Source of the DNA: Phycisphaerales bacterium
Lineage (GTDB): Bacteria; Planctomycetota; Phycisphaerae; SM23-33; FEN-1343
Length of the DNA: 64,000 nt
Direction: 5' to 3'
NCBI GenBank assembly: GCA_003171335.1
Contig: PMYD01000010.1
Location: 1-64,000, forward strand
The notes under the pieces were generated by a model. It made no database searches and was not told the origin of the DNA. It saw only the letters and a list, made by a program, of their open reading frames with translations. How positions within the stretch are numbered: the stretch's first letter is position 1; each line of letters opens with the position of its first letter. The position numbers were made by a program, and so were the translations under genes. This document shows, in pieces, positions 37,730 to 62,559 of the stretch.

Positions 37730-37769
37730 TAAGAATCTCAAATGGTGCCGTGATTTCAGGAGACAGACC

Positions 37770-39338
37770 TTGAACCTGTGGCAAATCACCATTGGCTTGT
37801 GCGTCTTTTCTGGCCTCTTGATCTCCTGCGCCGCCGGCGCTTCGAGGTCAAATACCCCGACCGCCGCCGCGGCAGCCCAGCCGGCTGCTAAACCCGCCGC
37901 CCCGGCGCCGATGCCCGTGGCCCAAGCGCCCCAGCCGGCCACAAAGCCGGCGGTGCGGCCGGGCTCAAAGAACACCGACCGCGCCGAGGTGCTCATGCTC
38001 GGACCCAACCGGTTTGAAGGCCACGTGTACGACCTGATCTACAGTTACCTCCTGGAGAGCGGCATCTATCTCGAGCTGGATGACCACGACCGGCTGCCCG
38101 AGGAGCTGCCCTGGGACCTGTCTCAGTACAAGGTCATCATCGTGGATAAATCGCTGCCGGTGGTGGAGTACGCCGGTTTTAAAGAGCATCTGGACCGTTA
38201 CGCGGCCCAGGGCGGCACGGTGATCTATCACACCCCGCCGGCCGAGACGAACTGGAAAGCGAACGACCCCGAGATGTACGAGGTTTATAACAAGGTGGTG
38301 GCGGCCGGCGTGAAGTTGCAGAACCCCGCCTTCCTGAAGCGCAACGCCGCCCGCCCGGATCGCGATGTGATCCTCAGCTCCACCGCCCGCCAGACCACCG
38401 TGCCGGGCCTGGTCGGCTGGTACCGCATCGGCAATGATGTGGCGTTCATGCATTTCGAAGGCATCCTGAAGACCGCCGAGCTGTACAACCGGCCGGACCT
38501 GCGCGATTTCGTGCTGTGGATGCTGGATGACATCGTCCGCACGCACGGTGACAAGCCGCTGCCGGTCTTCGGCGGGCACCTCGTGGACCAGTTCCAGAAG
38601 CTCGGCCGCCAGGACTACTACGAGCGATGCATGAAGAGCCTCAGGCCCGCCTCAATGCTCGTCGATCGCGTGGAGTTCACCCGCCGCACCAATCCCGCGG
38701 TCGCCTGCGAAACGGTCAGCGGCCTGGGTGATTTCATGGCCCTGGCCAAGCACGCCCCGGATCCCAACGAGTACTACCAGCCGCTGGTCGACATGATGAA
38801 GCTCTGCCATGATGCGCTGTTTGAGCCGACCACGCAGCTCTGGGCCCACGGGGGCACGCGCGGCGGCGAGCCCACTCCGGCCTGGAGCCGCGGCTACGGC
38901 TGGATGCTCATCGGCCTGGTGGGCATCATCGAAAACCTGCCCAAGGACCACCCCGATTACCCGCTGATGGTGCAGTACCTCGAGGAGACCACCAACGGAC
39001 TGAGCCGTTACCAGGATGCGACGGGCCTGTGGCACTGCATTGTCGATGACCCCAACACGCGCCTGGAGGCCAGCGGCACGGCCATGATTCTGCGAAGCTA
39101 CTGTCACGCCTGGCGGGCCGGGGTCTGCCGGACGCCGCAGGTCAAGGCGATGCTGACCAAGGCGTGGTACGGCCTCAAGACCCACACGGTCGGCGGCCGC
39201 ACGTTCTCGTTCCTCTGGGGCCAGGGCGCCACACACGACAAGAGCGCCTATGCCGTCAACCCCTCCAGCGGAACGCCGTATCTGGCGCCACTGGCGGGAC
39301 CGGAATATGTGATTACGTTCGGGCCGCTGGTTCCGTAA
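37770..39338 (+). CDS. GH105/GH88-like glycoside hydrolase, tandem paralogue, predicted lipoprotein (TTG or nearby alternative start)
   Basis: LNLWQITIGLCVFSGLLISCAAG signal/lipobox; same domain order and near-identical C-terminal PSSGTPYLAPLAGPEYVITFGPLVP. Confidence 0.75.
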   Translation: MNLWQITIGLCVFSGLLISCAAGASRSNTPTAAAAAQPAAKPAAPAPMPVAQAPQPATKPAVRPGSKNTDRAEVLMLGPNRFEGHVYDLIYSYLLESGIYLELDDHDRLPEELPWDLSQYKVIIVDKSLPVVEYAGFKEHLDRYAAQGGTVIYHTPPAETNWKANDPEMYEVYNKVVAAGVKLQNPAFLKRNAARPDRDVILSSTARQTTVPGLVGWYRIGNDVAFMHFEGILKTAELYNRPDLRDFVLWMLDDIVRTHGDKPLPVFGGHLVDQFQKLGRQDYYERCMKSLRPASMLVDRVEFTRRTNPAVACETVSGLGDFMALAKHAPDPNEYYQPLVDMMKLCHDALFEPTTQLWAHGGTRGGEPTPAWSRGYGWMLIGLVGIIENLPKDHPDYPLMVQYLEETTNGLSRYQDATGLWHCIVDDPNTRLEASGTAMILRSYCHAWRAGVCRTPQVKAMLTKAWYGLKTHTVGGRTFSFLWGQGATHDKSAYAVNPSSGTPYLAPLAGPEYVITFGPLVP

Positions 39339-44228: not shown

Positions 44229-47200
44229 CTACCATCTCAGGTCTTTCACCGGCTGAAGTCTGGAATCTGTGGCCGCGCCATCCCGGGCCGGCTGGGTCGC
44301 CGGGACCTGGGCCGGCTTCAGCGGCGGGGTATCGCAGTTCTTGGGGTTCTCGCCCCAGTGCACACCGTCGAGGCGCATCTTGGGGCCGCTTTCCAGGGGA
44401 TTGTACAGGGTCTCCATCAGGCTCTGGCACCCCTGTCCGCCCAGCATTCTGGTCCGCCGGGCCTCCTGATCCGTGGCCAGATCGGCCTCGGGCACGGTGC
44501 GAATGATCCGCGGCGTCAGGATGATCAACAGTTCCGTGCGGTTCTTGGCGACCGTGGCGCTCTTGAACAGCCAGCCGAGGATGGGAATATCGCCCAGGCC
44601 AGGCACCTTGGACTCGGTCGATTGGTCGGAGGTGGTGATCAGCCCGCCGACGACGATGGAATGGCCATCCTTGACCGTGATGGTCGTCGTGGCGGAACGA
44701 TTGTTGAAGGTCGGCGCCTGGGCGGACGTGGCGTTGGCCGAGATGGAACTGATTTCCGGGTGCACATCCATGCGCACGAAGCCATCGGGGCTGATCCGGG
44801 GCACGACTTCCAGGATGATGCCCACGTCCCGGTAGTTGTACGAGGTCGTCGGGTTGGCGGTGCCGTAGTAGTAGTTGATCTCTGGAATGGGCACCTGCTG
44901 GCCGGATTGGATGCGCGCCACCTGGTTGTCGATGGCCAGGATCTGCGGGCGATTCAGCACCCGCATGCGGCCCTGGCTCTCCAGCGCGCGCAGGAAGAAC
45001 TGCAGGTTTCCGCCGGTGACCGAAAGGTTAAAGCCGTTGTCCACCGAGCTGATGGCGGCCGGATTGGGCACATTCGTAGGCGTCGCGCCGCCGCCGACCG
45101 TCGTGCTGCCCACGCCATTGATGTTAGTGCCCGAGACGCCGCTGAACGTGTTGGCGTGGAACGTGTTCTGATACTGCCAGCCGGCGCCCAGGTCCATCTG
45201 GTCATCCAGGGTGACTTCCGCCATCAGCACGTCGATGAGCACCTGGGGCGGCGGTTCGTCGAGCTCCTGGATCATTTCCATGACGTTGTCAAAATAGCGC
45301 GAGGAGGCGGAGACCAGCAGCACATTGGAAGACTGCCCCGACGACTGGAGTTGAGCCGAAGGGCCGGTGCCGCTGGAGCCGGTGCCATAGTTATAGGATG
45401 GGCGATTGCTGGGCTGGGAGGTGCTGCCGCTGACATCGTTGGAGGTGGTGACCGCGACGACCGACACTTCGCGCTCCAGCAGCCGCTGAACGGCGCCCAA
45501 GTTGTCGGTGCCCATCGACTCGGTCAGCCGCTTGTGCTCCTCGTCGAGCCACTTCTTCATGGCCGTCTCGATTTCCGTCGCTTGCACGTTGCGCAGGCGG
45601 TAGATGCGGCAGATCCGCTCCTGGGCGGGGTAAGAATCGAGCTGCTCGATCACCCGCGAGGCCAGCCTGACGTGCTGATCCGTGCCGCCGACCAGCAGCG
45701 TGTTGGTGCGGGGATCGGCGGTAATGGTCAGCGCGACATCGGCGGCCGTGCCGATGGTGGCCGAGGACTTCTCCCCGGCCAGATTGGTCATGGTGTAGGT
45801 GACCATCTCGCCCGAGCCGCCATTGGAGCCGGGGGAGCCGGCGGAACTGCCGCCGCCGCCGCTGCGGGTCGAACGCGTCGAGCCGGCGCTATCGAGGCGG
45901 AAGAGGTCCTTGAGCGTGAGGGCCATCTGACTGGCGTCGGCGTTAACCAGCACGAACGACTTGATAATCGAGGCCCGCGGCGCCACGGAATCCAGCGCCT
46001 CGATCAGGTTCTTCAGCAGTTCCAGCTCATCCACCGGGGCGGTGACGACCAGGGCGTTGGCCCGCCGGTTGGGGGTGATCAGGATGCCTTCCTGGAGCGC
46101 CTGCGTGACCAGCCGCTGACCCCCGGGCATGTTGCGAATGAACTGGAGCAACGTCTGGCGCTCGACCTGCTGGGAGGCGGGCGATTCGGGCTTCTTGGTG
46201 AGGGTCTTGATCAGCGTGTCGGCCAGTTCGTTGGCGTCGGCGTTGCGCAGGGGGAAGACGCGGATTTCGGTGACGTTGGTCGACTTGTCATCATCCAGGG
46301 TCTTGATGATTCCCGCGATGCGATCCATCTCGTCCTGGGGCGCCGAGACGACGATCTTCTGGCCCCAGTCGTCCACGCTGATGGACACGCCGGAGTCCTG
46401 CATGCCGCCCATGCCCGTGTACAGGTTCTTGATCGTGTCGCCGACCTTCTTGGCGTCGGCCTTCTTGATCGGGAAGATCCGCTGCGTCTGGTCCGTGTCG
46501 ACCTTCTGGTCGAGTTGGGTGATCAGGTTCTCGGCCATCTGCATGTCTTCGGTCGTGGCGCCGACCATCAGGACGTTGGACTTCTTGTCGTTCACCACGG
46601 TCACCGGATCCAGCTCCTTGCCCTGGGCCTTGGGCCGGCCGGCGAAGAGCTTCTGGATCTGGTCGGAGATGTTGGCGGCCGAGGCATACTGGAGGCGGAA
46701 GACGCGGAAGATGGCCGTGGGCACCACATCTTCGGCGTCCAGTTTTTCGATCATGGCTTCGACGGCGTTGAAGCTCTCGGGGCCGCCGGAGACCAAAATC
46801 GTGTTGGTCCGCGGGTCGCCGGTGAAGTTGACCTGCAGGGGCGGGGTGCGCTTGTCGCCCTGCGTGGCGATCTCGGCGGTGCGCTTGGCGTCAAAGAACT
46901 TCTGCAGCGAGGGTGCCAGCCGGTCGGCATTGGCGTGCTGCATGGTGTACATGCGGATGGAGCTCATCTGGCCCTTGGCCTCCGGCGTGTCCAGCCGCTT
47001 GATCACATCCTCCAGGACCACGAAGTTCTCCTTGGAGGCCGAGATGACCAGCACGTTGGTCCGATCATCGGCCACGATGGAGACTTTTTCGTGGGCGGCG
47101 GCGGCGCTGTTGGCGGCCGGGTTGGCCAGGCCGACGCCCGGCTTATACAGCCCCTTGCTCACCAGGCTGTCGAGCATGCCGGCGATGCGGACGGCGTCGG

Positions 47201-50200
47201 CGTTCTCCAGGGCGTACATGCGGACAATGCCGTTGGCCACCGGGGGCGCCACGTCCACCTTGCCCAGCAGGGTGTGAATGAGCGCCAGGTTCTCGCGGCT
47301 GGCCGAGACGATCATCGCATTGGCCAAGGCGTCGGTCTCGACATCCACCTGGTCCTGCGGCGAGGGCTGCTGGCCGGGCGCCTGCGTGCTCTTCTGGCGG
47401 GCGTCGAAGAGCCGCTTGATCATCGGGCCCACGATTCCGGCATCGTTGTGCTCCAGCGGGATAACCACCAGGGCCATGGCCGGATCGGTCGGCTTGGTGT
47501 CGAGCTTCTCCAGCAGGCTCTTGACGATCTGGCTGTCTTCCTGGTTGGCCGCGACCAGCAGGCTGTTGGTCCGCTGGTCGGAGAGAATGACGGGCTTTTG
47601 GCGCTGGGTATCGCCGCCCTTGCCCTGGACCGCCTGGTAGCGACGGTCGAAGAGGGTCGACAGCGTGGTGGCCAGCGTGCCGGCCGAGGCGTTGGCCAGC
47701 GGCATGACCTGGATCTGCCCGCTCAGGGCCGGGGCCGCCACATCCAGCCGGTCGGCGAGGCCCTTGATCAGTTCGAAGCTCTCCGCCGAGCCGCCGACGA
47801 TCAGGCTGTTGCTGCGGGGGTCGGCCAGCACCATCACGCGCAGGGCCTCGGCATCCTTGGAGCCCAGGTCTTTCTGCCGCTGCACGCGGGCATCCATCAG
47901 CTTCTGCATGGTGGCGGCCAGGGCTTCGGCGTCGGAGTTGGCGACCGAGATCAGCCGCACCTCGTGCAGATCGACGGCCATCTTGGCATCCAGCTTCTCC
48001 AGCAGGGCGGTGATCATGGCGAACGTCTTGTCCGAGGCCGAGACGATCAGCGAGTTGGTTCGCGTATCCACCTGCACGGTCGGCTTGTCTTCCAGGCGCA
48101 CCAGGGCCGCATTGAGCCCGGTGTACAGGCCGGAAATCACGTTGGACAGTCGCGAGGCGTCGGCGTTGACCAGCGGGAAGATGCGGACCGTGTTCATCGT
48201 TCCAGCGCCGGGAATGTCCATGGACGTGATCACGTCGGCGATGATGGGCATCACGTCGCCGCGTGCGGCCACAATCAGGGTATTGGTGCCGCTGTCCGCC
48301 TGCAGCGCCAGGGCCGGGCGGGCCTTGGGATACTCGCTGGGCAGGAGCTGGCCGTTGGGCTGCTTGATCACCAGTCGCGTCACGTACGTGCGCACGCCCT
48401 CGGCGCCGGTGGCCGCTGGGCCGCTGCCCGTCGCGCCGGTCTCGCTGAAGACGGCCTGGAGCATGGGGGCCAGGCGGGCCGCATCGGCGTTCTGCAGCTT
48501 GAAGAGGCGAACTTCCGTGACAAACTTGCCGCTGTCGCGGTCGAGGTCCTGGACGAGCCGCTCGGCCAATTCCAGCGTGTCGGGCGCGCCGGAAAGGACG
48601 ATGGCGTTGGTCCGCACGTCGATGGCGCACGTCAGCGGCTTGACCAGCGCCTTGCCGTCGCCCTCGGCGGGCTCGGCCTTGCCGGCGAGAGTCGTGTTCG
48701 GCCGCCCGGCCAGTTGCTTGGCGCCCTGGGAGAAGGCGTCGTCGAGCACTTTCTTGACGGCCTCGGCATCGCCGTTGCGCAGCACGATCAGCCGCACCTT
48801 GATGGCCTCGGTCACCGGCACCGCGTCCATCAGCTTGACCACCGCGGCCAGGGCCTTGTTGTTCTCGGGCGTCGAGGTGATGACCAGCGAGTTGTTGCCC
48901 TGCTGACCGCTCTGGGTGGGGCTGGCCTGGATTTTGATGGGCTTGGTCAAGTCCAGTTCCGGAAGCGCCTCGCCATTCAACGTCCGCACGTGCAGCAGCT
49001 TGACCTGCTCCTGCAAGGCCCGCGCCTCATCGGTCACCTGGCCGGTCTTGCTGGGCTGGAGCATCTCGTTGAGCACGGCGGCCAGCGTGGGGGCGTCGGC
49101 CCGCATCAGCGGCACGATCAGCACTTCGCCATCGCCGAATTTCGGGCGCTCGTCGATCCGCGCAATGAGCTTGTCGATCTGCTCGAACATCGAGGTCTGC
49201 GCGCTGACGATCAGCGAGCGCGTCCGCTCGTCGACCACCACGCTGATGGGCTCATCGGGGTGCTGCTTGCGGTACTCATCGAGCATCTTGTTGAGCAGCG
49301 AGGAGGCGTTGGCCGGCGAGGTGTACTGCAGCGGCCAGACGCGGAAGTCCATGGCCGGGGAAATCGTCGGCGTGTCCAGTTCCTTGATCAGCCGCTCGGC
49401 ATCGGCCATCTTCTCGGCCACGGCGGCCACCATCACGGCCTTGGTCTTGGGCAGGGCCGTGATCGTGACGTTGTCTTCGGCGAAATTCGGCCGCTTGATA
49501 TTGGTGAAGATCTGCCGCAGCGAGTCGGCGGTGCGGGTGCTGTCGGCGTTCTTCAGTTCGAACAGCCGGATCTCGGGCTTCTGCGTCTTGGCCGCGCCTT
49601 CCAGGGCCTTCACCAGGTCCTGGATGACCTTGAGGTCCTCCTGGGAGGCATCAACCAGCAACTGCCGCTGGGCCGGCAGGACGGACACCGTGAAGGGCAG
49701 GGCGCCAGCCCCGGATGTCTCGCCGCCGCGCCGTTCGCCACCGCGCCGCTCACCCCCGGGCGCGCCGGCGCCGCTGCTGCTGCCGTACAGCTTGCGCAGC
49801 GCGCCTTCCAGCTCGTTGGGATCGACATTTTCCAACTGGATAATCCGAGGGGTGCCCTGCTTGGGGTTCATCTGCTCGACCTGGTTCACCCACGTGGCCA
49901 CTTCCTTGAAGCGTTCCGGGGAGCAGATCAGCACCAGCGTGTTGCTGCGATCATCCGGCGTGACGGCCAGCGGCGGCACCTCGCGCTGCGTGCGCTGGGC
50001 GGCGGCGAGTTGCTGGCGGTGCAGGTCGAGCACCATCTCGGCCACCTGCGCGGCCTTGGCCCGCTCCAGGGGCAGGATGAATGTGCCTTCGGCGGTCTGC
50101 GTGTTGGCCTTCTCGAGCTGGTCGATCATGCCGGCGAACTTCTCTACCGCCGCCGCCGGGCCCGACAGGATGATCGAGTTGCTGTTGACTTCCGCAGCCA

Positions 50201-53200
50201 CTGTCACGGCCGGCCCGGCCGCACCGCCGTGCACGCTGGGCGTGGCGGTTCGTTTGGTGTCCGCGATCACGGTCAGCGTCTTGGCGACCTCGACGGCCTT
50301 GCCATTGTGAAGCTGGATGACCTTGGTCGTGCCGCCGCCGTCAGTCTGGGCGGACTGGACCTGCTTGATAATCTTGTCGATCATCTCGTGCTGCTCGGCG
50401 GAGGCCGAGACGATCAGCAGCCTGGCGGCCTCATCGGCCGTGACTACCACCGGCGTTTCCTGCCGGCCCACCGGCAACGTGGGAATTCGCCCCGGCTGCA
50501 TCAGGTCGACGCCGGCGAACGTCCGACTCAGCGTGGCGGCCAGGCCCGCCACATCATCCACGGTGGTGGGATACATGCGGATCACCGGCCGGGTGCTCTT
50601 GCCCACGGACTGGTCCAGTTCCTTGATCACATCGGCCACCACGCTCATGATTTGCCGCGGCCCGGAGACGACCACGCTGTTGGTGGCGCGGTTGGCCGTG
50701 ACGACCGTGGTGCTGAGCGAATCGGCCGGCAGGGGGTTGCCGCTGGCGTCAAAGAGGGGCAGGATCGCCTTGAGGTCCTCGGCCCGCAGCTGCTGCGGGT
50801 TGATCGCGATCGCATTGCCGCCCTGGCTGGACAGGCGAAACAGCTCGCGCAGGTTGGCGGCCACTTCCGTGGCCTCGGTGTTGACCAGGGGGAACGTATG
50901 CACTTCCGTTTCCGCCCCGCCCGTCATCTGGTCGAGCCGCTTGATGGTCGGCTCAATGAGGTCGAAGTCGGCGGCCTTGGCCTTGACGATCAGGTTCCGC
51001 GTTCGCATCTCGGGCACGACGATGATCTTGGCGGGCGCCGCCGGGGCCGGCGGGGGGGCCGGCTGCGAAGGCTGCTGGCCCTTGTCCTTCTCGTCCTTGC
51101 CCTTGGGGGCCTGGGCGGCGGCGACGGCGGCGGCGGCCGCGGCGGCTGCCTGCTGCGGGTTAAACAGCTTCTCCAGCGTGGCCGCCACGGCCTGCGGATC
51201 GGCATGCTGCAGAGGGAACCAGCGGATCTCGGTGTCGGCCGACTCTTCGCCGCGCGACAACTGCGTGGCCAGTTCCTTGATGGCATCGATTTCCTGCTGC
51301 GTCCCCGAGACGATCAGGGTGTTGGCCCGCTTGTCCACGGCCACCAGCACCGGCGGCGTGACCGCGGCGGCCGGCGCCGTGGCCGGCGCTGAGGCAGCCG
51401 GCGGGGGAACCTGCCCGCGCGTCTCATCGGCCCGCAGAATGGCCGGGGCGGCTGTCGGTGCGCTGGCGGGCCCAGCGCGGGCGGGGCTCACCGTGGTCGG
51501 TGCGGCGGGCGGAGCAGCCGGCGTCTCGACCGGCTGAGCCGGCGGCAGCGCCGGCTCAGCGGATTCGCCGCGCCCGGGCAACGTCTCCACCACGCGCAAC
51601 TGATTGTCCGAAAGCTGCGGATACATATGGGCCAACAGCTCGGCCAGTTTCTCAGCCCGCATGTTGGTCACCGGAATGACCTGCACCTTGCGGGTGGGCA
51701 TCTTGTCGATCTTCTCGATTAGCGGCAGCATTCGCCGGTAGTCCATCTCTTTGGCGATGATCGTCAGGGCATTGGCGTAGCTGTCGGTTTCGATGCTCGG
51801 GGCATCGGGGCCTTTGCGGCCGCCGAAGAGGCTGTCGAGCTTCTTGGACAGCTCGTAAGCGTCGGCGTTGATCAGCGGCACGTAGTACACCTCGCGCAGC
51901 GGCACCTCGGTGTGCTCGATCTGGTTGAGCAACTGCTCGAACATGGAGAAATACGCCGGCGTCGTGGAAACGACCAGCGTGTTGGTCGGAATGTCCACGC
52001 CGATGGAGAACGGCGTAGTGGCCGAAGAAGAAGATCCGCTCCCGTGGCCCGGGCCGCCGGAGGCGGGTATCTGCTTGATCATGTCACGGAACAACTGGCC
52101 CAGCGAATCGGACACTTCCTTCGCATCATTGTTGGCCAGCTTGTACGTTCGCATCTGCGGCAGGTTGCTCGTGCCGGTGCCGTCAAGCTGGCGGATCGTC
52201 GCCACCACCTCGCTGACGCGCGTGGCCGGCCCGCGGACCAGCACGCTGTTGGAGTTCGTTTCCGGCGTCACGGTGACCGTTTCCGTCTCGCTCAAACCGC
52301 TTTGCTGGCCGCCTTGCGGAGCGCCTTGGCGGTTGGGGCCGGAGGATCCCTGCTGGCTGCCGCCAAGCATTCCGTTAACCGCCTCGGCCAGGCTGGAGGC
52401 CTGGGCATTGGTCAGGCGGACGATCTCCGTCACTGTCCGCTGGGCGGCCTGGACCACGTCGAGCTGGCCAATCATCTGCTCGGCCAGGGCCAGTTTGTCC
52501 GGCGGCCCCTGGACGATCAGGCTGTTGGTCGCATCGGCCGCGGCGATGCGCACGACCGTCTCCGTCGATTCCGGCGATCCCTGGCGGCGCTGGCCGCGCG
52601 GCGAAGAGCCGGAGGTCTCACTGGCCCCCAGCATCGATTGGAGGACATCCACCAGGTCCTTGGCCTGGGCGTGTTGGAGCGGGAAGAACTTCACCTCGCC
52701 GGTGAGCTTCGTGCCGGCATCATCAAGCTGCTTGACCAGGACCTTCATGGCCGCCAGCTCTTCGGGCCGGCCGGTGATCACCAGGCAATTGCCCGGATCG
52801 ACGGCGGAGGCGGGGGAAAGACTGCCCGGCGTGCGGTGTTGCGGATCGACGCCGCGGGCCGCATTGAGCGCATCGGCCATGGCCGAGGCCTTGCCGTGCA
52901 TCATGGGCACCACTTCGATGCGCATGGCGGAGTCGGCCGCCTCGGCGGAATCCAACTGCTCCAGCAGCGCGGCCACCTGGGCATGAACATCAGAGGTGGC
53001 ATAGACCACCACGGCGTTGACCGTCGGATCGGCGGAGACCTTCACCGGCGTCTCGGCCTGGCCCGAGCGCCCGGGCCGCGAGGGGCCGCCGGCCTGCTGG
53101 CTGGTGGACAGCGTGTCCTGGAGCACCTGGCGAACCGAGTCCGCCTTGGCATGGGCCAGCTTGTAAACCTTGGTTTCGGGCTTGGCGCCGCCATCGCGCT

Positions 53201-56200
53201 CATCGAGCAGCGCCACGAGGCTCTTGGCGACCGCGATATCCGACGGAGTGCCCGTCAGCAGCACGCTGCGGGCCCCGGCGTTGGGAACCACGCGCACGTT
53301 GCGGCCCTTGAGGGCGGGGGCCGTCCTGCCGCCGCCCTGGGGCTGTTGGCCGCCACGGCCGGGAATCTCCTGGCCCGCCAGCGCGGCGTTGAGCGCGGTG
53401 GCCATTTCTTCGGCGTCGGCGTGGGCCAGCGTGACGACCTCGGTCGTTACCGCGCTCTCGGTGCCGTCGGCAGTGTCCAGGCGGGTGATCAGCGTCTCGG
53501 CCTCTTTCATCAGCGAACTGGGGGCCGTGACGATCAGCACATTGGTCCGTTCATCGGTGCTCACGCTGATCCGCCCGGGGCGAGCGCCCTGGCGCGCGTC
53601 CTGGGTGCCCAGGCCGGCGCGGGTGCTCAGGGCGGCCTCGACGGTGGGCTCGATGTCGGCAGCGCGGGCCTGCTTCAGCGCGAACAGCCGCACCTGCACC
53701 TGGCGATCGACCGAGTCCGTCTCCAACTGCTGGATGAGCTTGTCGATGATCTCGTACTGCGTGGAGGTGGCCGCCACGAGCAGCAGGTTGGAGGCCTCTT
53801 CGGCCTCGAAGCGCGGCTCGGGCTCCAAGTTGCCCTTGTCGTTCTGGTCCTGGCGCGTGCGCCGCTCGGCGAACAGTTTGCTCAGCGACTGGGCCAGGTC
53901 GCGCGCGTTGGCGTTGGTCAGGATGTAGCTGCGCGGCGTCAGCCGGCCGGCCACCTCGCCTTCGGAATCCAGGCTGTCGGCCAGTTGCACGATCCGATCG
54001 ATCTTCTGCCGCGGGGCATCAATGACCAGGGCCTTGTCGCCGGGGGCGGCGGTAATCACGATCCGCTCCGAAATGCCGGCCTCGCCGCTGCTGCCCGGCC
54101 GTGGGCCGCCGGAGGAAGGGCCGCCGGCCGAAGAGCTCGGCGTGGGGTAAAGCTGCGTCAGCACTGCCGAGACGGCGGTCGCCGAGGCATTCGCCAGCGG
54201 GTGCACCAGCGTCTGGCGGGCCGTCTGGGCGATGGGTTTGTCGAGGTGGGAAATCATCTCTTCCAGCATCTTGCGCTGGTTTTCCGGCGCACGGATGAGC
54301 ACCGCGTTGGTCTGGGCGTCGGCGGTGATGGCCACGTCGCTCTCTGTGCCGTTTGCAGCCTTGGGCAGCATGGCGCGGAGCGTCTCGGCGACCTTCTGCG
54401 CATCGGCGGCCGTCATTTCGATGGTCGTGATGCGAACTGCTTCGCTCTGGCCCTCGACGTCCATCTCGGTGACCAATTGGGTGATCCGATCGAGGTCATC
54501 CTTGGATGCCGAGATCAGCAGGGCGTTGGCCTGCTCGCTGGCGGAAATGACCACCGGCAGGGCGATATCCGCCCGATTGTTGCCGGCGCGGTCGCGCCGC
54601 GAGAAGACCGGGTCCAGCGCCTTGGCCATGTCGCGGGCCGAGGCGTGTTTCAGCGGCAGCAGCCGCGTGATGCCGGCGGTCTGCTCGACAGTGGCCTGCT
54701 TGATGTCCTTGAGTATCGTCTCGATCCGCGGCCATTCGGCCGGGGGGGCGGCCACGATGAGATTGTTGCTGGAGCGGTCCGACTCGATGCGGATGTTGGG
54801 GCCGCCCGGACCCGTGCCTTCCTTGTTCAGCACGTTGATAAGGCTCTGGGCGAGCGGGCGGATGTCGGAGGTCTCCACGTGGATGACGCGAACCTCCAGC
54901 GCCTGCTCGGGCCGCACCTGGTCCAGTTCCTCCACCAGCGCGGCGGCGGTCTTGATGTCCGCGGCGGAGCCGGCGACGATCAGCGTGTTGCTGCGCGCCT
55001 CGGCCGAGACGGTCAGGGGCACCTGCGGCGTGCCGCGCGTGTTGGGGTGATTGGTGGCATCGTGGATTACCGAAACCAGTTGCCGGGCATCCGCCACCTT
55101 CATGCGGAAGGTCCGCACGCCGGCCACCTCGGTCTCTTTGCCGCTGTCCAGCTTCTCGATCAGGGCCTCGATCTTGGCCATCTGGTCGACCGGCGCGCTG
55201 ACCACCAGGCGGTTGCCTGTGGGGTCGGCCACGATGCGCGTCGCCATGTCGCGGCCGCCGGGGCCCTGCGGGGGCTGTTGATTCTGCACCGTCTCCTGGA
55301 GCGTGCGGGCCAAGTCCTCCGCGCGGGCGGTGGTGAGTTGAAATACGCGCGTGTCGCCGCTCAAGGCGCCCTGGTCTCGGTCCAGCCGGCCGATCATTTC
55401 GGTCGCCATCAAGAGCGCTCCCGACTCGCCCATGAGAACGACGATATTGGTGCGGTCGTCGTAGGTGACCCGGATGGTCTCGGTCTGCTGCGCGGCGGCC
55501 TGCGGCGGCTGCGGCTGTGGCGGGTTGGGCTGCTGGGGCGCGCGGCCGCGGCCCCATAGCTCGGTGATCACGCGGGCCACATCGCGGGCCGCGGCGTGCT
55601 TCAGCTCGACCGCCCGGACCTGCACGTCCTGGGCGATATCCCCCGTGTCCAGCAGCTCCAGCATTTTGCCGATGCGCTGGATCGTCGCCACCTCATCGGT
55701 GATCAGAAGCCCTTTGCTCTTGGCCAGGGCCGCCACCTTGCCGTAGGCATGGGCCATGGGCACGGCCAGTTGCTGGGCTTCACTGGGCTGGAGGTACTTG
55801 AGGGGCAGAAGAACCGTCACCAATTCAGCGTTCCGCATCTGTTTGGTGTTGTCCAGGCCGGACACGATCGGCACGGGCTGGCTTCCCAGATCCGCCAGCG
55901 GAACCAGCCGCAGGAAGCGGCCATCATCCATCATGCGAAAGCCCCGCATGGCCAGGACGATGTTGATCGTGTCGAAGGCCTCTTCGGGGGAGTATGGGCG
56001 GCTGTCGAAGAAGGTAACCTGTCCCTCTACGTCGACGGGGCCCATGATGGGCCTTCCCAGCTTGGCGCTGAAGGCTTTGACCACGGCGGTGATCGGCGCC
56101 CCGTCGTACTGTAGCCGGATTTCATTCTTTCCCAGCGCCGCCCGACTGGCGGCAGCGGCGGTCGGAACAGGTCTGGCCGGGGCGGGCGAAGCGACGGCGG

Positions 56201-56489
56201 TCGCGGGATTGGAAGGTGCAGGCGCGGCAGGTGCGGCAGCCGCCGGTGCGGCCGCCGGTGCAGCCGCTGGGGAGACGGCGGCCGGAGAAGCGGTCGGCGT
56301 TGGAGGTGTCGTCGCGGCGGCCGCCGGCGGGGCATCCGGCGCATGCGTCGGAGCCGGTTGGACGGCGCCATTAGGCGCAGCCGCGGGCTGCGGCTGCCCG
56401 GTGGATGTCGCACCGGCGGATTGACCCGATTGGCCCAGCAGCGAGAGGGCCAGCAGCGTTGCAAGAACCAAGGCGATTGTCGTACGCAT
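44229..56489 (-). CDS. giant secretin (GspD/PilQ family) with about 40 tandem N1-like domains
   Basis: MRTTIALVLATLLALSLLG signal peptide with RBS ggaggaaaaag; N0-like NEIRLQYDGAPITAVVKAFSAKLGRPI; repeated xVxxxPLxNADAxxLAxxLxxLF...V..D.RTNSLIVSA....I..LI..LD units; C-terminal secretin ESKVPGLGDIPILGWLFKSATVAKNRTELLIILTPRIIRT. Confidence 0.93.
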   Translation of the reverse strand: MRTTIALVLATLLALSLLGQSGQSAGATSTGQPQPAAAPNGAVQPAPTHAPDAPPAAAATTPPTPTASPAAVSPAAAPAAAPAAAAPAAPAPSNPATAVASPAPARPVPTAAAASRAALGKNEIRLQYDGAPITAVVKAFSAKLGRPIMGPVDVEGQVTFFDSRPYSPEEAFDTINIVLAMRGFRMMDDGRFLRLVPLADLGSQPVPIVSGLDNTKQMRNAELVTVLLPLKYLQPSEAQQLAVPMAHAYGKVAALAKSKGLLITDEVATIQRIGKMLELLDTGDIAQDVQVRAVELKHAAARDVARVITELWGRGRAPQQPNPPQPQPPQAAAQQTETIRVTYDDRTNIVVLMGESGALLMATEMIGRLDRDQGALSGDTRVFQLTTARAEDLARTLQETVQNQQPPQGPGGRDMATRIVADPTGNRLVVSAPVDQMAKIEALIEKLDSGKETEVAGVRTFRMKVADARQLVSVIHDATNHPNTRGTPQVPLTVSAEARSNTLIVAGSAADIKTAAALVEELDQVRPEQALEVRVIHVETSDIRPLAQSLINVLNKEGTGPGGPNIRIESDRSSNNLIVAAPPAEWPRIETILKDIKQATVEQTAGITRLLPLKHASARDMAKALDPVFSRRDRAGNNRADIALPVVISASEQANALLISASKDDLDRITQLVTEMDVEGQSEAVRITTIEMTAADAQKVAETLRAMLPKAANGTESDVAITADAQTNAVLIRAPENQRKMLEEMISHLDKPIAQTARQTLVHPLANASATAVSAVLTQLYPTPSSSAGGPSSGGPRPGSSGEAGISERIVITAAPGDKALVIDAPRQKIDRIVQLADSLDSEGEVAGRLTPRSYILTNANARDLAQSLSKLFAERRTRQDQNDKGNLEPEPRFEAEEASNLLLVAATSTQYEIIDKLIQQLETDSVDRQVQVRLFALKQARAADIEPTVEAALSTRAGLGTQDARQGARPGRISVSTDERTNVLIVTAPSSLMKEAETLITRLDTADGTESAVTTEVVTLAHADAEEMATALNAALAGQEIPGRGGQQPQGGGRTAPALKGRNVRVVPNAGARSVLLTGTPSDIAVAKSLVALLDERDGGAKPETKVYKLAHAKADSVRQVLQDTLSTSQQAGGPSRPGRSGQAETPVKVSADPTVNAVVVYATSDVHAQVAALLEQLDSAEAADSAMRIEVVPMMHGKASAMADALNAARGVDPQHRTPGSLSPASAVDPGNCLVITGRPEELAAMKVLVKQLDDAGTKLTGEVKFFPLQHAQAKDLVDVLQSMLGASETSGSSPRGQRRQGSPESTETVVRIAAADATNSLIVQGPPDKLALAEQMIGQLDVVQAAQRTVTEIVRLTNAQASSLAEAVNGMLGGSQQGSSGPNRQGAPQGGQQSGLSETETVTVTPETNSNSVLVRGPATRVSEVVATIRQLDGTGTSNLPQMRTYKLANNDAKEVSDSLGQLFRDMIKQIPASGGPGHGSGSSSSATTPFSIGVDIPTNTLVVSTTPAYFSMFEQLLNQIEHTEVPLREVYYVPLINADAYELSKKLDSLFGGRKGPDAPSIETDSYANALTIIAKEMDYRRMLPLIEKIDKMPTRKVQVIPVTNMRAEKLAELLAHMYPQLSDNQLRVVETLPGRGESAEPALPPAQPVETPAAPPAAPTTVSPARAGPASAPTAAPAILRADETRGQVPPPAASAPATAPAAAVTPPVLVAVDKRANTLIVSGTQQEIDAIKELATQLSRGEESADTEIRWFPLQHADPQAVAATLEKLFNPQQAAAAAAAAVAAAQAPKGKDEKDKGQQPSQPAPPPAPAAPAKIIVVPEMRTRNLIVKAKAADFDLIEPTIKRLDQMTGGAETEVHTFPLVNTEATEVAANLRELFRLSSQGGNAIAINPQQLRAEDLKAILPLFDASGNPLPADSLSTTVVTANRATNSVVVSGPRQIMSVVADVIKELDQSVGKSTRPVIRMYPTTVDDVAGLAATLSRTFAGVDLMQPGRIPTLPVGRQETPVVVTADEAARLLIVSASAEQHEMIDKIIKQVQSAQTDGGGTTKVIQLHNGKAVEVAKTLTVIADTKRTATPSVHGGAAGPAVTVAAEVNSNSIILSGPAAAVEKFAGMIDQLEKANTQTAEGTFILPLERAKAAQVAEMVLDLHRQQLAAAQRTQREVPPLAVTPDDRSNTLVLICSPERFKEVATWVNQVEQMNPKQGTPRIIQLENVDPNELEGALRKLYGSSSGAGAPGGERRGGERRGGETSGAGALPFTVSVLPAQRQLLVDASQEDLKVIQDLVKALEGAAKTQKPEIRLFELKNADSTRTADSLRQIFTNIKRPNFAEDNVTITALPKTKAVMVAAVAEKMADAERLIKELDTPTISPAMDFRVWPLQYTSPANASSLLNKMLDEYRKQHPDEPISVVVDERTRSLIVSAQTSMFEQIDKLIARIDERPKFGDGEVLIVPLMRADAPTLAAVLNEMLQPSKTGQVTDEARALQEQVKLLHVRTLNGEALPELDLTKPIKIQASPTQSGQQGNNSLVITSTPENNKALAAVVKLMDAVPVTEAIKVRLIVLRNGDAEAVKKVLDDAFSQGAKQLAGRPNTTLAGKAEPAEGDGKALVKPLTCAIDVRTNAIVLSGAPDTLELAERLVQDLDRDSGKFVTEVRLFKLQNADAARLAPMLQAVFSETGATGSGPAATGAEGVRTYVTRLVIKQPNGQLLPSEYPKARPALALQADSGTNTLIVAARGDVMPIIADVITSMDIPGAGTMNTVRIFPLVNADASRLSNVISGLYTGLNAALVRLEDKPTVQVDTRTNSLIVSASDKTFAMITALLEKLDAKMAVDLHEVRLISVANSDAEALAATMQKLMDARVQRQKDLGSKDAEALRVMVLADPRSNSLIVGGSAESFELIKGLADRLDVAAPALSGQIQVMPLANASAGTLATTLSTLFDRRYQAVQGKGGDTQRQKPVILSDQRTNSLLVAANQEDSQIVKSLLEKLDTKPTDPAMALVVIPLEHNDAGIVGPMIKRLFDARQKSTQAPGQQPSPQDQVDVETDALANAMIVSASRENLALIHTLLGKVDVAPPVANGIVRMYALENADAVRIAGMLDSLVSKGLYKPGVGLANPAANSAAAAHEKVSIVADDRTNVLVISASKENFVVLEDVIKRLDTPEAKGQMSSIRMYTMQHANADRLAPSLQKFFDAKRTAEIATQGDKRTPPLQVNFTGDPRTNTILVSGGPESFNAVEAMIEKLDAEDVVPTAIFRVFRLQYASAANISDQIQKLFAGRPKAQGKELDPVTVVNDKKSNVLMVGATTEDMQMAENLITQLDQKVDTDQTQRIFPIKKADAKKVGDTIKNLYTGMGGMQDSGVSISVDDWGQKIVVSAPQDEMDRIAGIIKTLDDDKSTNVTEIRVFPLRNADANELADTLIKTLTKKPESPASQQVERQTLLQFIRNMPGGQRLVTQALQEGILITPNRRANALVVTAPVDELELLKNLIEALDSVAPRASIIKSFVLVNADASQMALTLKDLFRLDSAGSTRSTRSGGGGSSAGSPGSNGGSGEMVTYTMTNLAGEKSSATIGTAADVALTITADPRTNTLLVGGTDQHVRLASRVIEQLDSYPAQERICRIYRLRNVQATEIETAMKKWLDEEHKRLTESMGTDNLGAVQRLLEREVSVVAVTTSNDVSGSTSQPSNRPSYNYGTGSSGTGPSAQLQSSGQSSNVLLVSASSRYFDNVMEMIQELDEPPPQVLIDVLMAEVTLDDQMDLGAGWQYQNTFHANTFSGVSGTNINGVGSTTVGGGATPTNVPNPAAISSVDNGFNLSVTGGNLQFFLRALESQGRMRVLNRPQILAIDNQVARIQSGQQVPIPEINYYYGTANPTTSYNYRDVGIILEVVPRISPDGFVRMDVHPEISSISANATSAQAPTFNNRSATTTITVKDGHSIVVGGLITTSDQSTESKVPGLGDIPILGWLFKSATVAKNRTELLIILTPRIIRTVPEADLATDQEARRTRMLGGQGCQSLMETLYNPLESGPKMRLDGVHWGENPKNCDTPPLKPAQVPATQPARDGAATDSRLQPVKDLRW
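44470..45240 (-). other. secretin C-domain of the giant secretin
   Basis: LIDVLMAEVTLDDQMDLGAGW...VPGLGDIPILGWLFKS...LLIILTPRIIRT. Confidence 0.9.
45240..55850 (-). repeat. tandem secretin N1-like protein repeats (about 40 by manual count, average about 88 aa)
   Basis: recurrent NAxA..LA..L..LF and TN.LIV.A/G cores ending in LD/LE. Confidence 0.85.
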
Positions 56490-56749: not shown

Positions 56750-57982
56750 TTAACTCTCGTCGTGCGGCAAGGTTCCGCTTTCTTTGGCAGGCTTTTCGGA
56801 TTGTTCGGCAGGTGAGTGGGGGGTGCCGGTGGCGGTTGTATCTCCAGTATCCGCAGCGGGTTGTGCTGGCGTGACTAAGCCGGGCGCCGCCGCTGGGGCA
56901 GTGGCGGGGGAAGTTTGCAGCTCCAAAGGCAAATCGTCATTATTCAGCCGGCGTTTCTGGGAGAGCGACTGGCCCAGTTCCACCGCCCAGTAATCGCCCT
57001 GTCCCGACTGCAAAATGAGCCGGCTGGGGCTCAGGATTTCCGGCTGATCCTGCGAGGGTAGCGGGCGGTAATCAACCAGCGCAATCTTCAGGTCCAGGAC
57101 CGACTGGCCCACTCCGTACTGCTGACCCTTCTGGTTGGTCTGGTCGACCAGAAGCACCGGCAGTTCGCCCTCGGTGCCAAACTCGCTCAGGCCCGCCAAG
57201 CGGTATCGATTGTAGTCCGGGCCGCCGGGCGGCGAGGGCGGGGTCGGTGCCGGCGGCGGGGCGGCCACCTCAACCGGCGAGGGTGGACGCGGCACGTAGG
57301 GGCTGAATAAGTCGCGCTCGGCAATGCCGTTATAGCGTATCCTGTCGGCCGCGGCCAGAAGGACCGCCGCCGGCTGGGTGGTCGCATTGGCCGGGGCCGG
57401 GGGCGTCCAAATCGTAAAGTCGCGATTGGCTGCCTTGTCATGACCTATCATGGGGGAAAGCACCAGCGTGGTGCACAGAAAGCTCGCCTTAACGGTCCGG
57501 CCTTCGCGCGGCTGGATGAACAGCTTATCCACTCGGACCGGATGCGGCTCGTTCTTGATCAGGTACAGGAAGTCCGTCAATTCCTTCAGGCCGCCGACGC
57601 ACGTGACGTTCCAGCCGACCTCGTTGAGAAGCTCTATGTTGTTCAGCTTTTCAGAAATCGCTTCGATTTGCTGAAGCAGCAGCTCGCTTTCATCAAGGTG
57701 ACTGGCCCTGGCCATCTCCAGCAGGCGAACGCGAAGCTGCCGGGAGGCCGTGTCGGGGTTCTTGTCATAAACCTGGGCGGCCAAAGCATTTAGACGACGC
57801 TGATAGTCGGCGCGCTTGACGGTATCGCTGTGGAACTGATTGTACTTCTTGAGGCTGTCCGCCAACTCTGCGCCGGACCTGCTCAACGGGACCAACAGCA
57901 CGGTGCTGAGGATAGCATAGAGGATCATCACTCCGACCAGTCCGCCGACGAGCCAGGCCATGCGACGTTCGCGAATCTTCAT
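56750..57982 (-). CDS. GspM/PilO-like inner-membrane protein with C-terminal GspC/PilP-like region
   Basis: N-terminal TM plus coiled coil, LKELTDFLYLIKNEPHPVRVDKLFIQPR (PilO-like); GIAERDLFSPYVPRP...YRLAGLSEFGTEGELPVLLVDQ...YGVGQSVLDLKIALVDY (PilP/GspC-like). Confidence 0.7.
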   Translation of the reverse strand: MKIRERRMAWLVGGLVGVMILYAILSTVLLVPLSRSGAELADSLKKYNQFHSDTVKRADYQRRLNALAAQVYDKNPDTASRQLRVRLLEMARASHLDESELLLQQIEAISEKLNNIELLNEVGWNVTCVGGLKELTDFLYLIKNEPHPVRVDKLFIQPREGRTVKASFLCTTLVLSPMIGHDKAANRDFTIWTPPAPANATTQPAAVLLAAADRIRYNGIAERDLFSPYVPRPPSPVEVAAPPPAPTPPSPPGGPDYNRYRLAGLSEFGTEGELPVLLVDQTNQKGQQYGVGQSVLDLKIALVDYRPLPSQDQPEILSPSRLILQSGQGDYWAVELGQSLSQKRRLNNDDLPLELQTSPATAPAAAPGLVTPAQPAADTGDTTATGTPHSPAEQSEKPAKESGTLPHDES

Positions 57983-59688
57983 TGGCCTACCCTCCCTCGG
58001 TTCCGGCGCGGCCGCCGGTCGTTCGCATCCGACGGACCTGCTGGTGGCGGCGGGGCCGCCGGCTTCGGGGGCGCTACTGGCGCCGCGGGGGCGACAGCCG
58101 GCACGGCCGCCGGCGCTGCGATCGCTGAGCCGGCCGGGCCGTTTGAGACATCATCCTGCGGCCGGGCGGGCACTGTTGTGGACAGTTTTTTCAACGCGTT
58201 GGCGTCGAGGGTCGCCGGGACGGCCGATTCGTACACGTAGCCCAGACCTTTGGGATCATTCTGGGGAGTCACCGTGGCGGGCTTGTTGTGGTATCCATTG
58301 GTTTCCAGCAGCTTTTCGAGCTGATCGATGCATTCGCGATCGTGGGCGCGCACCGCCAGGTTGACTATCTTGCCGGCGGACGCATCAAGCCGCGAAATAT
58401 AGATGTCCTTGGCCCCCGGCAGCAGGGCCGAAAGCTGCGCCAGGTGGCCCAACCAATCGACCTGCGAATCTTGCCATTCCTGCAGCCGGCGAACCCGCTT
58501 GCTCATGGGCTCGACCGTTTCTTCCCACAGGTTTTTTTCATTCTTGGCCGCGGCGGTCATACGCTTGGCTTCGTCGTTACGGCTGTTGGTCAGCCAGTAG
58601 CAGCCCAGCAGCAGCAGCAAGCAAACCAGCGCTCCCGTCGCGGCAAGGAGGGCCACGCGGGTCTTGCGGTCATCCTTGCGCACGGCCGGCCGGCGCGGGT
58701 GGAGGAAATCGAAACCCGCACTCTCGGCCGAGCCCACCGCCGCCCCCAGCGCCGCGGAGAACGCCGAGGCCGCCGAATCCGCCTGCAGGTCCAGCGCCTT
58801 GGCCGGGTCGAATCTCTGGCAGCGCGCCTCCAGCCGCTGCGACAGGGCCGCCGCCACTTCGCTGGCCAGCTCGCTCTGGCCGGCCACCAGCAGCCCTTCC
58901 AGCTTGCCCGCCCGGTGGCTCACCTGGAAGCTCTGGAGGCTGCGCATCACTTCGCTGACCACCGTCTGCACCATGCCGGGCCGCCCAGACTCGTCCTCGG
59001 CCGTCTCGGCCAGCGGCGCCGAACGGCTGAAGACCAGCGAGGCGCCGACGACGAAATCAATCTCCGTCTCATCGGCCGTCACATCCACCAGGGCCACGAA
59101 TTCGCCGGGGCGCCGGGTGACACACGAATCCAGGCAGCGCAGATTCGAAGCGGGGCGCAGGCACAGCCGCACCGGCTGCAACGAGGCCACCTCCGCCAGC
59201 CGGCGGTAATAATCGACCACCGGCAGGCGCACCGCCGCCGCCAGGACATCCTGTCCCCCCTCGGCGCCGTCCGCGCCGGTCTCGGTGCCAGTGTGGGGCG
59301 TGATGGTGAAATCCACCACCGCCTCGGCGGCGTCGAAAGGCAGCTCATTGGCGATCTGGTACTGCACCATGCCGGCCAGTTCCCCCTCGGGCGTGCCGGC
59401 CGGCAGCGTCAGAGCCTTAAGCACCGCCTGGCTGCGCGGCACGTTCATCAGCACATCGGCGCCGGCCAGGCCCATCTCGCCCATCACCTGGCCGACCAGC
59501 GCGCCGGCCGCCTCAGCATCGCCCATATCCACATCCGGCGGCACCGGCACGCTGCGCAGGGCCAGGATTCGCGGGCCCCAGCGCGAGGCGTCAAAGTGAA
59601 CCACCCGCAGTTGGCGGCGGTCGAAATCGAGCGCTACCGTCTTGGGCCGCCTGAACCGCTTGGTGAACTGTTTCGCCCACGCTTTCAT
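57979..59688 (-). CDS. PilM-PilN-like fusion (GspL-like)
   Basis: TVALDFDRRQLRVVHFDASRWGPRIL, GMVQYQIANELPFDAAEAVVDF (PilM); internal TM VALLAATGALVCLLLLLGCYW then PilN-like LGHLAQLSALLPGAKDIYISRLDASAGKIVNLAVRA. Confidence 0.8.
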   Translation of the reverse strand: MKAWAKQFTKRFRRPKTVALDFDRRQLRVVHFDASRWGPRILALRSVPVPPDVDMGDAEAAGALVGQVMGEMGLAGADVLMNVPRSQAVLKALTLPAGTPEGELAGMVQYQIANELPFDAAEAVVDFTITPHTGTETGADGAEGGQDVLAAAVRLPVVDYYRRLAEVASLQPVRLCLRPASNLRCLDSCVTRRPGEFVALVDVTADETEIDFVVGASLVFSRSAPLAETAEDESGRPGMVQTVVSEVMRSLQSFQVSHRAGKLEGLLVAGQSELASEVAAALSQRLEARCQRFDPAKALDLQADSAASAFSAALGAAVGSAESAGFDFLHPRRPAVRKDDRKTRVALLAATGALVCLLLLLGCYWLTNSRNDEAKRMTAAAKNEKNLWEETVEPMSKRVRRLQEWQDSQVDWLGHLAQLSALLPGAKDIYISRLDASAGKIVNLAVRAHDRECIDQLEKLLETNGYHNKPATVTPQNDPKGLGYVYESAVPATLDANALKKLSTTVPARPQDDVSNGPAGSAIAAPAAVPAVAPAAPVAPPKPAAPPPPAGPSDANDRRPRRNRGRVGQ

Positions 59689-59713: not shown

Positions 59714-61144
59714 TCACGGTCCGACCGCCAGCGGCATTCCCAGCCGCGTCAGGTCGCGCAGATACGTAATGTGCGGCGTGGATGAACTCAGGTCCACCAC
59801 CGCTTCAAGCACGCAGTAACCCGCCGGCCGGCCGCCCTGGACGCCAATGCCATAGCCCACGCACCGCACGCGGTATTGCCGGCTGCTGGTCGTGATCATG
59901 CCGATGAGCTTCTTGAAGGCCTGCGCATCCACCAGTTTTTGCGCGTAAATCCAGGAGCGCGAGGCAAGCTGCTGGCTGGAGAGCGTGGAGCGAGCCTGGA
60001 CAATCCGCTGGGCCAGCCCCTCATCCACACCCGGCAGCAGGCTGAGCACCTCGACCGGCGCCGTGTTGATATTCAGTCGGCCCGGCGTCAGCGAGACTTG
60101 CGATTGGCTGGCCGAATTGCCGGAATTGGCATCCACGGATGTTGATTGCGAGGTCGCCTTGCTGGCCGGCTGCGAGCCGGCCGGCTGCGAGGCGGCGGTA
60201 TCTTCGCTGGCCGGGATGAGTTGCTGACTGATCGGCCCGGCCACCAGCGACTTCTCCAAGCTGTCCACCTGGTTGATGCCGACGCCGGAAGTCAGCTGCG
60301 AGCCTTTTTGCGTGACGTAGTTGGCATCGAGCAAGTCATAGATACTTTGGAAAACCTTGCCGTCCTCGCGGTAGCCGCGAATGAAGTTCTGCGTTTGCGC
60401 CGGAAGCTGCGTGCGGGACAAACCCTTGAGATTGCCGTTGATATTGAACTTGCCCTGGCTGGAGCCGTTCGTGTCGCGCTGGCACGTGGCGGCCGTCAGC
60501 ACGGCCGAGAGGCCCGCATCCGGGCGAACCGGCCCTCCGGCGTTAGGGTCCTGGCCGTAGACGATGGCGGCCGTGAAGCCGCGAACCAGCAGCAGCTCCT
60601 CCAGTGTGGCCAGGGGCCCGTTTCGCGGCTGGTACGGACAGGGCAGGCGGCTGTAGAACTCCGACTCAATGCCCCCCGCCGCACCGCGATAGCCGATCAC
60701 CGCCTCAGCCAGGGCCGCATTCATGCCCGGCAGGCGGGAGAGCGTTTCGGCCGTGGCCGTATTGACGTTGATCTTGGCGCCTTCATCGATGACCCCGTAG
60801 CGGACCGAGGCCAGGCCGCTCTGCTCGACCGGCGCGTAAACGGTGAAATACCAGCGCACGCCGCCATCATCGCTGACCAACTGGTTGCAGAAAGCCGCCG
60901 GATTATCCCACCAGACGGCCGGATCGTTGGCCTCGCACAGCACCGCCATGGCCTGCTCCAGCCCGCCCATGGCCGTCAGTCGCGCCTGGTTGAAGCTGAC
61001 GGCAATCCCCGCCGCATAAACCTGCGCCCGCATGCGGTAAATGACGGCCGTGGCGGCCAGCGCCATCATCGAAATCAGCACGAGGATGGCGAAGAGAATG
61101 GAGCCCGGCCGGTGGAGCGGCCTTGCCGTGGTAGCCGCGTTCAT
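59714..61144 (-). CDS. gspK: GspK-like minor pseudopilin
   Basis: PGSILFAILVLISMMALAATAVIYRMR without Glu5; INVNTATAETLSRLPGMNAALAEAVIGYR. Confidence 0.87.
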   Translation of the reverse strand: MNAATTARPLHRPGSILFAILVLISMMALAATAVIYRMRAQVYAAGIAVSFNQARLTAMGGLEQAMAVLCEANDPAVWWDNPAAFCNQLVSDDGGVRWYFTVYAPVEQSGLASVRYGVIDEGAKINVNTATAETLSRLPGMNAALAEAVIGYRGAAGGIESEFYSRLPCPYQPRNGPLATLEELLLVRGFTAAIVYGQDPNAGGPVRPDAGLSAVLTAATCQRDTNGSSQGKFNINGNLKGLSRTQLPAQTQNFIRGYREDGKVFQSIYDLLDANYVTQKGSQLTSGVGINQVDSLEKSLVAGPISQQLIPASEDTAASQPAGSQPASKATSQSTSVDANSGNSASQSQVSLTPGRLNINTAPVEVLSLLPGVDEGLAQRIVQARSTLSSQQLASRSWIYAQKLVDAQAFKKLIGMITTSSRQYRVRCVGYGIGVQGGRPAGYCVLEAVVDLSSSTPHITYLRDLTRLGMPLAVGP

Positions 61145-61890
61145 TGCGCACCCCCCAGCGCGGCGATCCGCGTTCCCGGGAGGTACACCACGCGCCGAAA
61201 CGTCTCGTTGGCGGCCAGGTAGTCGTTGATATCCTGCCCGTCGGCAATCGGGTTTGGGCCCATGGTGATTTCGACGGCCAGCGGCAGGCCGCCTTGCCAG
61301 TCATCCACCCAACCGTTGTCAATGGGGCCGGAATAGCCGGAATTGGCGGGGTCGCCCACGTGGTAGCGCAGGCGCAGGAAGTGCACGCCCGGAGCCACCA
61401 GGTCGGCCATCGCGGGCGAGGAGTCCTCATCCACGCCCGGCAGCCAGGACAGGCTCACCCGTTCCAGCCCATCGTTGTGGGTGGTGCCATCCTCCATCTG
61501 GCTGTAGCGGATGCGGTAAATCACCCGCTGCACATCGCTTTGCGGCGGCATTTCGGCGGTGTGCTGCTCAGGCGGCAGGCAGGCCGAAGGGCCCGGCATG
61601 AGGGTGGAAAGGAAGTCCACCTGGCCGGAAGAACCCGCAAAGGCCGGCGAGCTGTCCGACTCCGACTGTCCCAGCGCCGGCACGAAGGCCGAGCGCAGCT
61701 CAGTCGTCAGCATTTCCATCGTCCGCTGCTGGGCGACGACCGCTTCCACATCCGTCAGCACCTGGCCCTTGACCGTCTGCACGTAATGGTTGAAGCTCAG
61801 CGCTGAACCGATCAGTCCCAGCGTCAGGACGATCGCCAGAATCACTTCCAGCAGCGTAAAGCCGGTTTTGGCAGGGCGGCGTCGCCTCAT
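61141..61890 (-). CDS. gspJ: GspJ-like pseudopilin
   Basis: MRRRRPAKTGFTLLEVILAIVLTLGLIGSAL; start overlaps gspI stop. Confidence 0.82.
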   Translation of the reverse strand: MRRRRPAKTGFTLLEVILAIVLTLGLIGSALSFNHYVQTVKGQVLTDVEAVVAQQRTMEMLTTELRSAFVPALGQSESDSSPAFAGSSGQVDFLSTLMPGPSACLPPEQHTAEMPPQSDVQRVIYRIRYSQMEDGTTHNDGLERVSLSWLPGVDEDSSPAMADLVAPGVHFLRLRYHVGDPANSGYSGPIDNGWVDDWQGGLPLAVEITMGPNPIADGQDINDYLAANETFRRVVYLPGTRIAALGGAQ

Positions 61891-62498: not shown

Positions 62499-62559
62499 CG
62501 AACGAACCTCAGCCAAAAATCAGTCGATTCGCCACCCAGTCTTGCCTTTCCTCGAGCCT

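Follow-up and report, generated by a model that had tools for sequence, protein, structure and literature searches.

The locus raises the question of which machine would use a secretin of 4086 aa and what a stem of about 40 repeated domains might build. The gene lies at 44229..56489 on the minus strand of the window, the 64-kb stretch of Phycisphaerales DNA analyzed here. The initial annotation had read it as a single unbroken minus-strand frame with a good ribosome-binding site. We found that 44229..56489 (-) contains no stop codon and encodes 4086 aa (a giant GspD-type secretin of about 431 kDa when mature) and that the ATG at 56489 is preceded by GGAGGAAAAAGA, with GGAGG immediately 5' of the start, both of which bear out that description. 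An alternative in-frame ATG at position 56543 would add 18 residues. GC content at codon positions 1, 2, and 3 is 66, 47, and 88% overall, and the third-position bias is present in each 400-aa block of the gene. The hydrophobic N-terminal leader MRTTIALVLATLLALSLLGQSGQSAGA (56409..56489, -) is, judged by eye, a probable Sec signal peptide, with its cleavage site inferred.

We found an N0 domain at aa 127 to 191 (55917..56111, -; Pfam PF21305, type_II_gspD_N0, 29.4 bits against a cutoff of 27) and a secretin C-domain, comprising the outer-membrane barrel and gate, at aa 3835 to 3997 (44499..44987, -; PF00263, E values of 5e-52 to 7e-54). These are the N0-like start and the canonical C-domain that had been noted at first sight. 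The same Pfam scan returned 37 Secretin_N stretches totaling 1258 bits. A repeat-derived profile resolved 39 N1-type repeats at aa 285 to 3744 (45258..55637, -) with a mean period of 88.7 aa. Together with a divergent first N1 at aa 226 to 282 (55644..55814, -; PF03958, E value of 3.9e-4, under the curated cutoff), this gives 40 N1-type domains, in agreement with an earlier manual count of about 40 copies averaging about 88 aa. The earlier concern that most repeats might lack the Secretin_N fold is answered by the 37 matched stretches, and the significant Pfam matches of the array repeats are solely to the secretin N-domain family. PDB XcpQ N0-N1-N2 chains align with aa 136 to 318. The TIGR02517 score of 1322 bits (cutoff, 351) adds up 20 separate stretches; for this same reason, the cutoffs of TIGR02515 (PilQ) and TIGR02516 (SctC) are exceeded as well. 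KH and N1 domains have a similar fold; a KH-domain RNA-binding reading was rejected, as the Pfam KH matches fall under cutoff.

We modeled repeats 32 to 35 (aa 2999 to 3328; 46506..47495, -) with AlphaFold2 from a 50-sequence alignment. The model consists of four beta-alpha-beta-beta-alpha domains with a mean pLDDT of 87.8, and Foldseek returned 39 matches at an E value of ≤0.001, all of them secretin chains, with GspD/XcpQ-type chains on top. Modeling of three to five repeats had been proposed as a check on the N1 assignment, and this four-repeat model gave four confident N1 folds. On the strength of the model, we are confident that the repeats fold as N1 and resemble GspD/XcpQ N-domains. A model of the C-terminal 520 aa matched GspD cryo-EM structures (Foldseek E value of about 1e-19); its mean pLDDT is 66.8, with low-confidence loops and tail, and it was used for the fold match alone.

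To which machine does this secretin belong? The giant gene is the final gene of a type II secretion system (T2SS) operon with the order E-F-G-H-I-J-K-L-M-D. GspF and GspE lie directly past GspG, outside the 64-kb window. Within the window, all on the minus strand, we identified the major pseudopilin GspG (63200..63670; T2SSG, E value of 5e-16), the minor pseudopilins GspH (62560..63135; TIGR01708, E value of 6e-8), GspI (61887..62516; TIGR01707, E value of 2.5e-6), GspJ (61141..61890; T2SSJ, E value of 1e-4), and GspK (59714..61144, with a helix-hairpin-helix motif), the GspL/PilM-like cytoplasmic platform protein (57979..59688; PF11104, E value of 4.7e-16), and GspM (56750..57982; NF040576, E value of 2.9e-6). 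The GspH, GspI, GspJ, and GspM matches are below curated cutoffs, and these assignments come partly from operon order. The true start of GspH is near 63135, as a longer open reading frame reaching 63420 overlaps GspG. The E-to-D order recurs at giants of several families, within the reach of the contigs or stretches. A type IV pilus secretin was ruled out by the GspD-type N0, the lack of any AMIN domain before N0 in the Pfam scan, and the T2SS operon order with its pseudopilins; the pilM-N-O-P set is not found at this locus, and the operon is T2SS-type, though GspL scores PilM-like. Judged from sequence, the giant secretin is the GspD component of this complete T2SS, and all the defining features that could be tested fit.

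GspM carries an additional C-terminal domain (aa 205 to 350; 56933..57370, -), which was delimited by alignment. A direct Pfam and PDB search with this domain gave no significant match, the best solved structure being GspC (E value of 0.35). A profile of the domain matches loci that Pfam T2SSC also detects (E values of 4.8e-4 and 0.022), and in the operons of relatives with ordinary-size secretins the domain is encoded on its own, by a gene that lies between M and D (L077, L080, L081, and L098). From this profile linkage and operon context, we infer that the extra domain is the homology region (HR)-like domain of GspC, making the protein a putative M-C fusion. The fusion is already found at two loci with intermediate secretins (L088 and L104). 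In giant operons, GspM is about 340 to 645 aa long, compared with 192 to 201 aa at two further T2SS-like loci of the source genome (contigs C4 and C77).

We propose that the giant gene probably encodes the channel of a complete T2SS whose stem has been lengthened by N1 duplication to 40 copies and forms a long tube. According to this model, the periplasmic stem of GspD would have grown as the N1 ring domain was duplicated in tandem. As in other secretins, 12 to 15 protomers would assemble, and the N0 and 40 N1 domains would stack into about 41 rings. If all rings stack, the tube beneath the outer-membrane pore would be roughly 100 to 160 nm long, taking ring heights of 2.5 nm (a general estimate for the domain size) to 4 nm (about 240 Å over six rings in Thermus PilQ). 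The predicted complex would be about 6 MDa (5.6 to 6.5 MDa for a 13- to 15-mer), and the pseudopilus would be correspondingly long. Such a stem would allow a T2SS to function at sites where the two membranes are widely separated.

We found giant secretins throughout a class-level sample of 237 genomes of at least 90% completeness, the class being Phycisphaerae according to named relatives. By a tally of the matches listed, at least 67 of the 237 genomes hold frames of ≥2300 aa, at least 48 hold frames of ≥4000 aa, and at least 32 frames are 1400 to 2300 aa long; some of the short frames may end at contig edges, and weaker matches are uncounted. Some genomes of the same order, also at least 90% complete, have no giant frame, which counts against the long-tube reading. 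Among the matches listed from 292 phylum-wide genomes, the frames of >2300 aa all come from Phycisphaerae, and secretin frames in the other planctomycete classes are about 1200 to 1500 aa or 500 to 1000 aa. Those relatives of the giants that bear names are metagenome-assembled genomes (MAGs) of Phycisphaerae or Phycisphaerales. Repeat counts form a gradient, from 1 to 4 in other phyla through 5 to 10 in most Pirellulales/Planctomycetia to 10 or more in Phycisphaerae. A search of related genomes for homologues and for variation in repeat number had been proposed, and the Phycisphaerae giants that we retrieved in full have 14 to about 50 repeats.

Several records stood apart. Two records titled Leptolyngbya/Cyanobacteria (L068, QWIH01000003.1; L072, RHKP01000005.1) hold Phycisphaerae-type giants with 39 to 41 repeats; because of these secretins, the MAG names look wrong. 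Secretins of 2267 and 1968 aa in L099 (VGZJ01000050.1) and L086 (JAIBBI010000001.1) have 10 to 11 recognized repeats, with the remaining stem outside the repeat profile. Two genomes of family f20, G287 (C55:20219-21727) and G337 (C61:45931-47433), have one TGA in the matched C-terminal stretch of the giant secretin, which could be a natural frame end, a frameshift, or a decaying copy.

We compared the repeats position by position. They are orthologous by position within the order and to those of G047, from another family of the class: 34 of 35 reciprocal best profile matches with G047 are colinear, versus 9 by chance, as are 30 of 30 with G034. Reciprocal best repeats between genera have a median identity of about 0.42 to 0.52, versus 0.29 within the array. 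This orthology between genera led us to reject a recent tandem expansion within the order. In distant families, fewer repeats match, mostly on the C-terminal side (positions 26 to 28 and 32 to 39), and the arrays of G049 and G040 (49 repeats) are largely noncolinear outside C-proximal positions. The pattern fits what would be an ancestral C-proximal core with partly independent expansion thereafter.

The same pattern bears on an unlikely but serious alternative, in which stacking is confined to N0-N1 and the C-proximal rings and the other repeats form a flexible or folded-back tether to an inner membrane that is distant or mobile. Such a T2SS secretin would agree with a C-proximal core conserved across the class and N-proximal repeats that are lineage specific. 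The four-repeat model, with a pTM of 0.53, does not fix the orientation of one repeat to the next, and the N4 ring of Thermus PilQ is a flexible one, with a gap of about 20 Å to N2N3. In contrast, repeats are joined by short, uniform junctions, with about 9 residues from helix 2 to the next strand in the model, and purifying selection extends to the distal repeats.

It is improbable that the repeats instead form a binding or gating array for cargo, polysaccharide, or peptidoglycan, with length incidental and loops rich in G, P, Q, and S between helix 1 and strand 2 serving as a lumen filter. Repeat length varies mainly in this alpha1-beta2 loop, and loop insertions totaling 470 residues fall at one site of the repeat fold. 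Single repeat positions are kept as orthologues, which could mean distinct binding roles, and N1 loops make a gate in Thermus. Against this reading, we detected no binding motif, the loops differ freely from one another in both length and sequence, and the repeats significantly match just the secretin N-domain family.

Neutral expansion, in which a tolerated domain was duplicated by a constructive ratchet and length has no function, we regard as quite improbable. Repeat numbers do range from 14 to about 50 between families, and in one pair of families most repeats of the 4086-aa secretin are not colinear with those of G049 and G040. However, counts made with the repeat profile are identical in congeners (31/31, 39/39, and 49/49), and frame sizes are tight in families f15 (1503 to 1843 aa, with one of 1253 aa) and f4 (4261 to 5207 aa). 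They are also narrow in f5 (3847 to 5100 aa) and more spread out in f19 and f91. Across three congener pairs, each tenth of the gene has a pN/pS of 0.07 to 0.46, mostly 0.1 to 0.3. Because selection is purifying in every tenth of the gene, we consider the whole array to be maintained.

An assembly or gene-prediction artifact is scarcely credible: the source assembly is in 169 contigs, but no 20-mer occurs twice within the gene, and like architectures occur in seven single-contig genomes (G039, G137, G333, G352, G447, G487, and G495) and in CP070772.1, a named complete-chromosome record whose giant has 40 repeats in a stretch that ends, at its flank, at 3751 aa. The initial annotation had itself raised assembly collapse or expansion as a suspicion, and these results lay it to rest. 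Identity among the repeats of the array has a median of 29% and a maximum of 44%; thus, the repeats are old and diverged and do not reflect assembly expansion.

Returning to the long stem, we asked what distance it might span. The initial annotation had suggested that it bridges a very wide periplasm. The same genome encodes further secretins of 939, 1188, 773, and 581 aa and a TPR secretin of 1149 aa (contigs C4, C77, C135, C51, and C123; L130 to L134), the 939-aa paralogue having three Secretin_N stretches, as well as TolC-family proteins of normal size. With such ordinary components, at least some of the envelope is expected to have the usual width, and a periplasm of 100 nm throughout is unlikely, which weakens the suggestion as a statement about general width and leaves a locally widened periplasm as a possibility. 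In other members of the phylum, the planctomycete periplasm has been reported to vary, with large local enlargement by invagination (PMC5394234). The long stem could serve such locally enlarged regions. We found no envelope images of Phycisphaerae species known to carry the giant gene in the literature searched. We put forward tentatively, as a plausible reading, that the T2SS of Phycisphaerae may include a closed trans-periplasmic tube of about 40 to 50 rings (>100 nm), several times as long as any described secretin stem. Through this tube, cargo or a long pseudopilus would cross regions where the periplasm is locally enlarged, and the N1 repeat number would set its length.

Other envelope and neighboring genes were also noted. 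Two of the five further secretins are in T2SS-like operons, and one has Tad-like neighbors. The genome has 15 T2SSE-family ATPase matches and unusually rich type IV filament machinery. In the window, at 30463..31677 (-) and 32204..33772 (-), a T2SSE-family ATPase without MshEN (of PilT-like size) adjoins dnaA and not a pilus operon. An LplT-Aas-like protein of 1315 aa, encoded at 18083..22030 (-), joins an MFS transporter to acyltransferase and AMP-binding domains. Two frames of the GH88 family and one of the GH20 family lie near the secretion operon (36061..39338, +; 11184..13445, +). Polysaccharide-degrading enzymes are possible cargo for the giant T2SS.

GspD normally consists of N0 and three N1-type domains. 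The giant shares with GspD proteins (XcpQ, PulD, EpsD, and ExeD) the N0, the N1-type domains, the secretin C-domain, the last position in an E-M operon, and a GspC-HR-like partner, and differs in its 40 N1-type domains, a count well beyond what is usual for the family, and in the fusion of GspC to GspM. Secretins of Planctomycetia/Pirellulales (about 1100 to 1500 aa) belong to the same family, mostly have 5 to 9 repeats, roughly a fifth of those of the giant, and in some cases (L088 and L104) accompany the GspM-HR fusion; they may represent an intermediate step of expansion. Thermus PilQ also has rings of the N1-type fold, and its extended stem (six stacked rings, 350 Å long including the secretin domain) has been ascribed to the wide periplasm of these cells, which measures about 70 nm (PMC5745081, PMC4463427). 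Thermus thermophilus PilQ is 757 aa long, has six rings, and functions in type IV pili and DNA uptake, whereas the giant has 4086 aa and about 41 predicted rings and is encoded in a T2SS operon. The crateriform structures of Planctopirus and Gemmata (PMC5394234) are from the same phylum and likewise span the envelope, with pili-like fibers, but they occupy sites at which the inner membrane and the wall are close together. The main text of that paper does not contain the word "secretin," and the crateriform proteins are not identified in the text searched; a link to the giant secretin is only a lead.

We found no description of secretins of such size, or of secretins in Phycisphaerae or planctomycetes, in the literature searched, a body of text to which most subscription papers are external and in which many matches were to "secreting." The main text of a survey of huge proteins does not mention secretins. 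The initial annotation had offered the locus as an undescribed system. No account of the 40-repeat stem was indeed found in the literature searched, and the machinery, with its complete operon, is a variant of the T2SS.

If the long-tube reading is true, this stem would exceed all known secretin stems in length, and the encoded stem length would vary by single-domain steps between related bacteria. The coupled GspM-GspC fusion suggests that the inner-membrane anchor changed along with the stem. The finding would open to test the width of the planctomycete periplasm where secretion machines sit and the use of secretin stem length as a ruler of the distance between the inner and outer membranes.
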